From Candidatus Fibrimonas termitidis (lineage in GTDB: Bacteria; Fibrobacterota; Fibrobacteria; Fibrobacterales; Fibrobacteraceae): a stretch of DNA of 38,676 nt. Under the pieces are notes generated by a model, which had not been told where the DNA came from, made no database searches, and saw nothing but the letters and a program-made list of their open reading frames with translations. The stretch covers positions 1 to 38,676 of the forward strand of contig LIUG01000162.1 of the NCBI GenBank assembly GCA_001462245.1. Reading direction: 5' to 3'. Of the stretch, positions 33,015 to 38,646 are shown piece after piece. Every line of letters begins with the position of its first letter. The stretch's first letter is position 1. A program made the position numbers and the translations under genes.

Positions 33015-36131
<3,117 letters not shown>

Positions 36132-36142
<11 letters not shown>

Positions 36143-37478
36143 GGCACAACCTTAAAATACATTCTTCCTTGCCAAGACATTCCAGAATTTCCCAAAGCCC
36201 CGGACCTGCGTTAACACCGCTGATCGCAAGCCTCACAGATTGCGCAAGTATTCTCAGCTTAATTTCGTGCTTCTCGCTAATTTCCACAAAAACTTTTTCA
36301 ATGCTCTTTGCACTAAAGTCATCGTTTGGAATTTTTTCAAGCTCGGGCACAATCAGATTTACATTTTCATCTTCAATTTTTTGAGGCCGTTCAAAAAAGT
36401 AATTGGACATCGCTTTGAGTTCTGTTATGAATTTTAAACGAGGTTTTAACAGAATAGCCACTTTCAAAAATTTGCTTTCATCCGTTTCGTTCGGATAAAG
36501 TTTTTTCAATTCGTCCGCAAAAAACAAATCAGGCAGCAATCTAATGTGCATACCGTTCATCCATTCCAGTTTTTTTTCGTCAAAGGCCACCGCTTTTGGG
36601 TGTATGCGTTCAAGAGAAAATGCCTCTATCATCTCTTTTAAGCTCATCACTTCTCTATCGTCTCCGGGGCTCCAGCCCAAAAGTGAAAGGAAGTTCACAA
36701 GGGCATGAGGCAAGTAACCCAAATCCCTGAAATCCCCTACGGATGCGGCTCCCTTGCGTTTGGAGAGCTTCCCCCCTCCGGGTGCCAAAATCACGGGCAG
36801 GTGACAAAAAAGCGGGGCTTCCCAGCCAAAGGCATTATAGAGCAAAATATGCTTGGGGGTGCTGCTTATCCATTCATCGCCCCTCAACACGTGGCTTGTT
36901 TGCATATAGTGGTCGTCCACAACGCTAGCCAAATGGTAGGTCGGGAATTTATCCCTTTTCAAGATTACAAGGTCATCCAAATCTTTGTTCGGGGTTTCAA
37001 TTTCCCCCCTGATTAAATCGCTGAACTTAGTTATGCCGTCCGGCGGGGATTTGAACCTTATCACAAATTTTTCCCCGGCTTCAATTCTTTTTTTCGCTTC
37101 GTCCAAGGGTAGATTTCTGCAATGGCGGTCATAGCCGTGTTCCAATGTTTGCAGGCGTTCTTCGGTGCAAAAGCAGTGGTAGGCATTTCCGCTATCTATG
37201 AGTTGTTGTGCTGCCTTGCCGTAAATTTCCAGCCGTTCGCTCTGAAAATACGGACCTTCGTCCCAAGCCAGACCTAGCCATTCAAGGTCTCGCAATAAAT
37301 CTTTTAAAGCGTCTTCGTTATATCTTTTGCGGTCGGTATCCTCTATCCTCAGGTAGAAGGTTCCTCCGGTGGCTTTTGCGAAAAGATAATTGTAAATAGC
37401 AGTACGGGCGCCCCCAACGTGCAAATAACCCGTTGGGCTTGGCGCAAAACGGACTCTAACAGGTTTTACCTCACTCAT
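36132..37478 (-). CDS. gltX: glutamyl-tRNA synthetase
   Basis: A 448-residue class I synthetase that charges tRNA-Glu (and possibly tRNA-Gln). The N-terminus reads VRVRFAPSPTGYLHVGGART, with the HIGH-type motif, then FYLRIEDTDRKRY. The KMSKS motif is KLSKRKG in PGGGKLSKRKGAASVGDFRD, and VLRGDEWISSTPKH precedes it. The C-terminal helical anticodon domain is slightly shorter than in E. coli (471). Its ATG at 37478 is only 4 nt after the 3' end of tRNA-Leu(GAG), so there is no Shine-Dalgarno outside the tRNA, and tRNA 3' processing would leave a nearly leaderless mRNA. The zinc-ribbon gene follows with an overlap. Confidence 0.96.
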
Positions 37479-37482
37479 TCTA

Positions 37483-37566
37483 TGCGGTTGAAAGGACTTG
37501 AACCTTCATTCCCTTGCAGGAGTCAGCACCTCAAGCTGATGCGTCTACCAATTCCGCCACAACCGC
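37483..37566 (-). tRNA. tRNA-Leu (anticodon GAG)
   Basis: An 84-nt class II tRNA. The acceptor GCGGTTG pairs with CAACCGC, followed by discriminator A. The D arm is TGGCGGAATTGGTAGACGCA. The anticodon stem TCAGC/GCTGA encloses TTGAGGT with anticodon GAG, reading CUC and CUU. A long variable arm (CTCCTGCAAGGGAAT) and a GGTTCAAGTCC T-arm region follow. No CCA is encoded. gltX begins 4 nt downstream. Confidence 0.95.
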
Positions 37567-37704
37567 TAATAGCCCAAATATACAATCTTCACCAAGTGTG
37601 GCGGGCAACTTAGTCCGCCACAACCGCTAATAGCCCAAATATACAATCTTTACCAAGTGTGGCGGGCAACTTAGTCCGCCACAACCGCTAATAGCCTGAA
37701 TATA
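37553..37704 (-). repeat. 61-bp tandem repeat carrying tRNA promoter and tRNA 5' end
   Basis: Period is 61 bp: TCCGCCAC begins at 37553, 37614 and 37675. The first and second copies are almost identical (one base in the middle, C/T at 37590/37651); the third is partial. In minus orientation each unit has a -10 TATATT (37577-37582, 37638-37643, 37699-37704), 10 nt, then GCGGTTGTGGCGGA or GCGGTTGTGGCGGAC, that is the first 13 nt of tRNA-Leu. Only the innermost continues into the tRNA. In the outer two, GTGGCGG pairs with CCGCCAC to form a hairpin. Confidence 0.9.
37577..37582 (-). promoter_or_regulatory. -10 element (TATATT) of tRNA-Leu-gltX, innermost of three
   Basis: TATATT ends 10 nt before the first base of the tRNA. 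Two identical elements lie 61 and 122 bp upstream, giving three tandem promoters. Confidence 0.55.
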
Positions 37705-37731
37705 GTAAACTTTCTCCAATGCTTTTTTGAT

Positions 37732-37804
37732 TGTCTGAACTCCGATACCCCCGATTTTTAGGATTTTTCCCATCCTTTCCTTCGAAGGTATCGGGGTTCA
37801 GACA
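37732..37804. repeat. inverted-repeat element, copy 1
   Basis: The 18-bp arms TGTCTGAACTCCGATACC (37732-37749) and GGTATCGGGGTTCAGACA (37787-37804) are reverse complements with one mismatch. Smaller palindromes lie inside (AGGAT...ATCCT and CCTTCGAAGG). A stretch from 37772 to 37800 recurs at 38612-38640 with two differences in 29. It lies just 3' of the GNAT gene and could act as its terminator. Confidence 0.75.
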
Positions 37805-37814
37805 CCGTATTATA

Positions 37815-38375
37815 TCAAGAATAAATATCCTTTCGCATACTTATAGTTTTACGGTTTTTGTTGTACAATTCTTCATTTACAAGAAATCCGTTCTTTTTAT
37901 AAAAATCCAAAACACTTGCGTTATGCTCAACATCGGCATCTACGGTAAGAAAACGGCAAGCCATGTATTTTTTATTGCATTCGCGAGCCATGGCACAAGC
38001 GGAATAAATCATAAAGGAGCCTATGCCTTTATATTTTTCTTGAAATTCGCTGTTCGTAGCAAGTTTGGCAACTTTCATTGCAGGAATGGTTTTAAATGGA
38101 TAATCCAAAAGATGCAAAGATTTTTCCGTAACAGATAATTTTATTGCATCTGCTATCAAAGACATATAAGCGATAATCCTGTTAGTTTCTTTTTCTCGCA
38201 ACAATAGTGTAAATGCTATATGGTCTTTTTGTGAACGTAAAGCGTCAATTTTTAAATATTCGTTATATTCCGCCACTGAGCAATCAAATTTTGATAGTTG
38301 GTTTAATTCAAATAATCTTTCAAAAAAGAAAAATGTAAGTCCATTTTCGGGTGTAATTAAAGCGTGGCTATTCAT
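37815..38375 (-). CDS. GNAT-family acetyltransferase, possible toxin of a toxin-antitoxin pair
   Basis: A 186-residue protein. The GNAT core is visible: IAFTLLLREKETNRIIAYMS (beta2-beta4), TIPAMKVAKLATNSEFQEKY, the acetyl-CoA loop KGIGSFMIYSACAMA (Q/RxxGxG/A type, here KYKGIG), then FLTVDADVEHNASVLDFYKK and NGF. The PAMKVAKLA strand and FYKKNGF ending are usual for the TacT-like GNAT toxins that acetylate aminoacyl-tRNA, but many other GNATs share them. A 50-residue gene lies 1 nt upstream, consistent with an antitoxin-toxin operon. There is no Shine-Dalgarno at the ATG beyond what overlaps that gene. Confidence 0.75.
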   Translation of the reverse strand: MNSHALITPENGLTFFFFERLFELNQLSKFDCSVAEYNEYLKIDALRSQKDHIAFTLLLREKETNRIIAYMSLIADAIKLSVTEKSLHLLDYPFKTIPAMKVAKLATNSEFQEKYKGIGSFMIYSACAMARECNKKYMACRFLTVDADVEHNASVLDFYKKNGFLVNEELYNKNRKTISMRKDIYS

Positions 38376-38582: not shown

Positions 38583-38646
38583 GTGCCTCACCCCGTTTCC
38601 CCATCGGGAAAATCCTTTCCTTCGGAGGTATCGGGGTTCGGGCGAA
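38583..38646. repeat. dispersed repeat, copy 2
   Basis: It shares ATCCTTTCCTTCG(A/G)AGGTATC and GGGGTTC(A/G)G with copy 1 at 37732-37804, in the same orientation. The outer bases (GCCTCACCCCG... and CGGGGTTCGGGC) form poorer arms than in copy 1. It lies just upstream of the GNAT operon promoter, so the two copies bracket the cassette. Confidence 0.6.

Follow-up and report, generated by a model that had tools for sequence, protein, structure and literature searches.

A tandem array upstream of tRNA-Leu(GAG) consists of copies of a ~60-bp, probably mobile hairpin repeat of termite-gut Fibrobacterota

Related small repeats and tRNA-gene elements

Genes for tRNA are classic integration sites, and in the known integrative elements that use them a copied segment restores the 3' end of the tRNA. 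Rickettsia palindromic elements are small repeats inserted in host genes; we know of no regenerated tRNA 5' end for them. REP and REPIN sequences, which are associated with RAYT (TnpA_REP), are small dispersed intergenic palindromic repeats that occur in clusters and have the potential to form RNA hairpins (PMC3733652, PMC3116915). REPs of the GTAG/CGTC type are palindromes tagged at one end by GTAG or CGTC and have stems of 5-13 bp with loops of 2-20 (GTAG) or 4-5 (CGTC) nucleotides (PMC3733652).

The array described here is located in a 38,676-nucleotide stretch of contig LIUG01000162.1 of Candidatus Fibrimonas termitidis, which was analysed as a whole (the window), and is composed of copies of a family of ~60-bp mobile hairpin repeats of termite-gut Fibrobacterota. 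Like REP/REPIN sequences the unit is small, dispersed, intergenic, clustered, hairpin-capable and possibly mobilised by Y1. It differs from them in its length of ~60 bp, the ~36-nt loop between its arms X' and X2, its head-to-tail arrays and its docking at tRNA 5' ends. Moreover, no GTAG/CGTC tag is common to all copies (GTAG stands before the stem in G010 and in some G017 copies but is missing in the window and in most copies), and no RAYT gene flanked by units on both sides was found in the incomplete assemblies. MITEs are likewise short, non-autonomous insertions with demonstrable filled and empty sites, but the unit has no terminal inverted repeats: its 5' end (AATAAGTAT) does not complement its 3' end, its arms are internal (X') and 3'-terminal (X), and the target repeat at ordinary sites is 0-3 nt. 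A subterminal hairpin, a short A/T-rich target and little or no target duplication are shared with single-strand elements of the IS200/IS605 type; in contrast to these, the arms of the unit vary between copies and follow the host sequence at tRNAs, and the link to a Y1 gene is a candidate one. As with tRNA-gene integrative elements, insertion takes place inside the tRNA gene and a copied segment (14-16 nt, four tRNAs) keeps the tRNA whole. However, it is the 5' end that is restored, the unit is a geneless 60-bp sequence encoding no integrase, and one family serves several tRNA species. Rickettsia palindromic elements resemble the unit in that they, too, are small repeats in host genes.

A literature search did not find an earlier description of the family. 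That a 60-bp geneless repeat repeatedly occupies the 5' part of different tRNAs, leaves each of them intact and has an arm matched to each poses the testable question how a non-coding unit acquires target-specific sequence. Cells must also cope with a 5' tRNA decoy ahead of single-copy tRNAs.

The array and the architecture of the unit

A tandem array with a period of 61, 2.5 copies and 96% match was identified by TRF at 37553-37704. The direct repeats 37553-37613 and 37614-37674 differ in 1 base and are followed by a 30-nt third copy (37675-37704). The array is on the minus strand, immediately 5' of tRNA-Leu(GAG), which is followed by gltX (Table 1). Read 5' to 3' on this strand, a 5'-truncated remnant, whose segment resembles the 3' half of a unit in a by-eye alignment, precedes two full extra units and the tRNA gene. 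Each full unit starts with nt 1-14 of tRNA-Leu(GAG), and the third copy of this 5' end is the tRNA itself. An earlier note on this DNA had described a 61-bp unit, carrying the first 13 nt of the tRNA, in three tandem copies. TRF and the direct repeats agree on tandem 61-bp units upstream of the tRNA, but there are two full extra units and a remnant, the third 5' end being that of the tRNA, and the tRNA part common to the units is 14 nt (GCGGTTGTGGCGGA), not 13. The hairpin of GUGGCGG with CCGCCAC, also claimed there, was found in both extra units (GTGGCGG/CCGCCAC). Comparison with related genomes, which had been suggested as a check, bore out the architecture: the congeners G003 and G005 have one full unit before tRNA-Leu(GAG) in the same arrangement as the window. 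Since both show it, the unit architecture is not an assembly artefact, whereas the exact number of units in the window was read from one metagenome assembly of 211 contigs.

Table 1. Positions of the array, its parts and neighbouring features in the window
Feature	Position	Strand	Remarks
gltX, glutamyl-tRNA synthetase, 3' of tRNA	36132..37478	-	Pfam PF00749 (1.2e-102), PF19269
tRNA-Leu(GAG)	37483..37566	-	ARAGORN; Rfam RF00005, 56.7 bits
tRNA-Leu(GAG) nt 7-13, 3' arm X2 of inner unit	37554-37560	-	
Inner 61-bp unit	37567..37627	-	covariance model matches R1 86.7 bits, R2 67.3 bits; core ends at 37567; loop CTAAGTTGC
Inner unit, copy of tRNA nt 1-14	37614-37627	-	
Inner unit, X'	37598-37604	-	
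Inner unit, TATATT (-10-like)	37577..37582	-	no -35 at 16-18 nt
Outer 61-bp unit	37628..37688	-	covariance model matches R1 86.7 bits, R2 46.6 bits
Outer unit, copy of tRNA nt 1-14	37675-37688	-	
Outer unit, X'	37659-37665	-	
Outer unit, TATATT (-10-like)	37638..37643	-	no -35 at 16-18 nt
Third unit (5'-truncated) or native leader	37689..37715	-	by-eye alignment; TATATT 37699-37704; TRF array to 37704
Dispersed palindromic repeat (TGTCTGAAC...GTTCAGACA)	37732-37804	.	inverted repeat; separate family beside the array

The unit consists of AATAAGTAT, the arm X' (6-7 nt), a core of ~36 nt (CACTTGGTAAAGCATTTGTAGATGGGCTTTTA...) and the 3' arm X2, followed by AA. In head-to-tail arrays X2 of one unit doubles as the 5' flank (X1) of the next. 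X' and X2 covary: in alignment A3, which was fitted to the X'-X2 structure, 89% of the cells were paired and 90 were double-change cells, against at most 46% pairing in slid controls; in the MAFFT alignment A2 of a smaller set, taken as comparison, 86% were paired (slid controls at most 43%). G-U pairs were included in the covariation. X1 and X', separated by a 10-nt loop as against the loop of ~36 nt between X' and X2, paired in 61% of the cells. Because RNAalifold did not find a stable consensus fold on alignments A2 and A3, arm pairing may count at the DNA level as much as at the RNA level. In the Rfam scan only the tRNA reached threshold and no known structured RNA was matched; identity with a known Rfam RNA was rejected, and a sub-threshold manA match over the tRNA regions of L010 and L002 was probably caused by the tRNAs.

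Dispersal, mobility and docking at tRNA genes

Matches to covariance model R1 were present in 9 of the 12 congeners. With model R2, 9 congeners had 2-38 copies each and this genome had 8. Most copies are intergenic repeats far from tRNAs. The sister genera G017 and G018 contain 40+ weaker, diverged matches each, often in tandem with a ~60-bp period; genera beyond these and the congeners gave no repeated matches, G058 having a single weak one. The hosts are Candidatus Fibrimonadaceae / Fibrimonadales / Fibrobacteria MAGs, and GUT307 and similar genomes are of termite-gut origin. Phage origin was rejected, the core pattern having 0 matches among viral contigs. With crude ORF calls, genes downstream of the units were co-oriented 38 versus 15 while upstream genes were even, a weak signal. 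Loci L254, L256, L262, L264 and L270 of G018 contain a diverged unit (GGCGGC-AATAAGTATA-GCCGCC, period ~60) in long head-to-tail arrays, and a further array (L274) shares its contig with a 16S rRNA gene.

When units were excised in silico, the joined flanks matched unit-free copies of the same host repeat in 3 contexts. The join at L228 (...AAATCCCCT/AAATCC) was exactly that of the empty sites L108 and L160 (CCCCT/AAATCC). The joins at L205 (empty L200/L088) and L243 (empty L241/L214) were off by one to three A. Insertion occurs directly before AA(A/T), and the target repeat at dispersed sites is just 0-3 nt, at most a short A repeat. The match to empty sites after excision indicates that the unit is mobile, and the comparison of filled and empty sites defines the inserted piece as the unit including X2. 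The unit is probably a small non-autonomous mobile element, this degree of confidence covering the explanation as a whole, i.e. mobile repeat, docking at tRNAs and masking as described below.

Genes of the Y1/RAYT type were found in 6 of the 12 congeners and were absent from assemblies rich in copies. Since a unit was near such a gene at 1 of 18 Y1 loci, in assemblies that are incomplete, RAYT was dropped as a proven mobiliser. The sole case is L287 (G010:C145), with a unit ~120 nt downstream of a RAYT-like Y1 gene.

In this genome 4 of the 7 places occupied by units adjoin tRNA 5' ends (chance ~1e-16). A search upstream of other tRNAs, proposed in the earlier note, was successful: besides Leu(GAG), units were found at Leu(CAG), Leu(UAG) and Arg(ACG), the last being added by a scan of 43 tRNA genes. 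Together with Leu(GAG) in G003 and G005 these make up the six docked loci. The insertion is in the D-arm, after nt ~14 (...GG/AAT; GTGGCGG/AAT). The first 14-16 nt of the tRNA are duplicated exactly upstream and an intact tRNA gene lies downstream; X2 and the bases preceding it correspond to the 5' end of the tRNA itself (these 14-16 nt) together with a few bases of the leader. The register is uniform at 18-19 nt, counted from GGGC to the GG that precedes AA; G005 deviates. X' is complementary to nt 7-13 of the tRNA at which it is docked: CCGCCAC for GTGGCGG, CCACCAC for GTGGTGG and GGCCGCC for the Arg gene. A longer complementarity, extending past the 7-nt X' into the acceptor, was rejected, the own tRNA scoring no better than swapped tRNAs. 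Docking adds 47-52 bp beyond the tRNA copy, with no coding capacity.

The same tRNAs are present in congeners without the unit, whose occurrence is sporadic. At Leu(UAG) the sequence 5' of the first copy resembles the native leader in G002, indicating that the first copy is the original tRNA start and that the unit entered downstream of it. In G010 just GCGAAAGTGGCAGACTAAGTA is left before tRNA-Leu(UAG), and in G003 a core fragment; both are probably remnants of units. Before tRNA-Thr(TGT) a leader (L033, G000:C179; CCCCGCATAAATTGGTAAAAAAGCT) resembles the unit core and is a possible remnant at a fifth tRNA.

The tRNA remains intact after insertion because a fresh copy of its front end is left, and regeneration of the 5' end would explain why an insertion in the D-arm is tolerated. 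Since dispersed insertions have a target repeat of 0-3 nt, the tRNA copy of 14-20 nt needs another mechanism. As ordinary insertions lack a long target repeat, our guess is that the copy is made by template switching or by a later duplication kept by selection. We consider it unlikely that the unit takes its 3' arm and a guide-like X' from the target and thereby inserts in tRNA D-arms, rebuilding the tRNA 5' end at each insertion, or that the unit is an intron-like D-arm insert.

Folding of docked loci and rival explanations

The earlier note's suggestion that the truncated tRNA 5' ends of the leader could mimic a tRNA was supported by folding: the upstream copy competed for the tRNA 3' half at all six docked loci. 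In these folds the probability of the native acceptor stem was 0.79-0.99 without and 0.00-0.12 with the unit, the upstream copy captured the tRNA 3' half at a probability of 0.72-0.99, and the decoy fold was more stable than the native tRNA by 2.4-10.6 kcal/mol. The nascent hairpin of X1 with X', with energies of -9.8 to -12.9 kcal/mol at 6/6 docked loci, is transcribed in full before the tRNA. Because thermodynamics alone favour the decoy fold, a masking role must rest on kinetics. From these models we infer that X' masks the truncated tRNA 5' copy: the X1-X' hairpin would form first in the nascent RNA and hide the upstream decoy, which would let the real tRNA fold and RNase P cut at the true 5' end.

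The match between X' and the tRNA could have arisen by selection for masking or by quasi-palindrome correction of DNA during replication. This template-switching process acts on inverted repeats that have a 10-nt loop, as X1-X' does, and X is common to the copies of a tandem array; a functionless match produced by it together with conversion between tandem copies is possible, if doubtful. In dispersed copies, however, pairing of X' is much commoner with the distant X2 (86%) than with the neighbouring X1 (61%), a contrast that concerns the origin of X', not the identity of the element. The lowest-energy folds also fit an intron- or switch-like RNA insert, in which the upstream copy is exon 1 and the D-arm is freed of the unit by looping out or removal, or in which the RNA toggles between the two 5' halves to control maturation. 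In these folds the upstream copy is joined with the 3' half of the tRNA at 6/6 docked loci, most of which fold X'-core-X2 as an inserted hairpin; the order from promoter to copy stays native at Leu(CAG) and Leu(UAG), and the G-U pairs point the same way. But both 5' halves yield the same tRNA, which makes splicing unnecessary, no intron or ribozyme family was matched, and RNAalifold gave no consensus RNA fold. Units are also sporadic in congeners, with dispersed copies in arbitrary repeat contexts, and we regard such an insert as quite improbable.

TATATT occurs three times in the array, and a similar TATATT is present in the G003 unit, in line with the earlier note's triplicated promoter, a tandem duplication that would raise tRNA-Leu supply or regulate gltX. 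The sigma-70 promoter scan, however, gave 0 sites in the array (shuffles 0.9), with no -35 at sigma-70 spacing. Among docked units TATATT was found only at the related Leu(GAG) loci of G000 and G003, the others having TAGAT, GATTAT or CAAATG in its place. No promoter is recognisable at the Arg(ACG) unit, which comes after 5S rRNA; the Arg gene has 5S rRNA before it here and in most congeners. The native -10 of Leu(CAG) and Leu(UAG) is upstream of the unit, in the position that it has in unit-free congeners. Since the Arg copy follows 5S rRNA, TATATT is not shared and no sigma-70 promoter was found, promoter supply is not a shared feature; TATATT in the window units is a local feature outside the conserved content of the element. 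Promoter triplication was rejected in view of the dispersed copies, most of them away from tRNAs, the variable -10 place, the 5S rRNA context and the empty scan, the unit being one copy of a dispersed family; a promoter duplication of any such function is very unlikely. Local slippage by chance or misassembly, which a metagenome assembly of 211 contigs might suggest, is refuted for the architecture, which recurs at four tRNAs here and in G003 and G005, two independent assemblies; this explanation is hardly credible.

The palindromic repeat beside the array is of a type (TGTCTGAACYCCGAT...ATCGGGGTTCAGACA) that the genome carries in dozens of partial copies, another lying near 38605-38640. Its arms vary together (CCGAT/ATCGG or AGAAT/ATTCT), and in congeners the mobile units often sit inside repeats of this type. 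A 186-aa ORF at 37815-38375 (minus strand) is GNAT acetyltransferase-like by eye, with no Pfam match. On the other side, TRF found the 7-bp sequence AACTCTC repeated perfectly in tandem, 4.6 times (34923-34954), at the end of a 397-aa ORF 3' of gltX.
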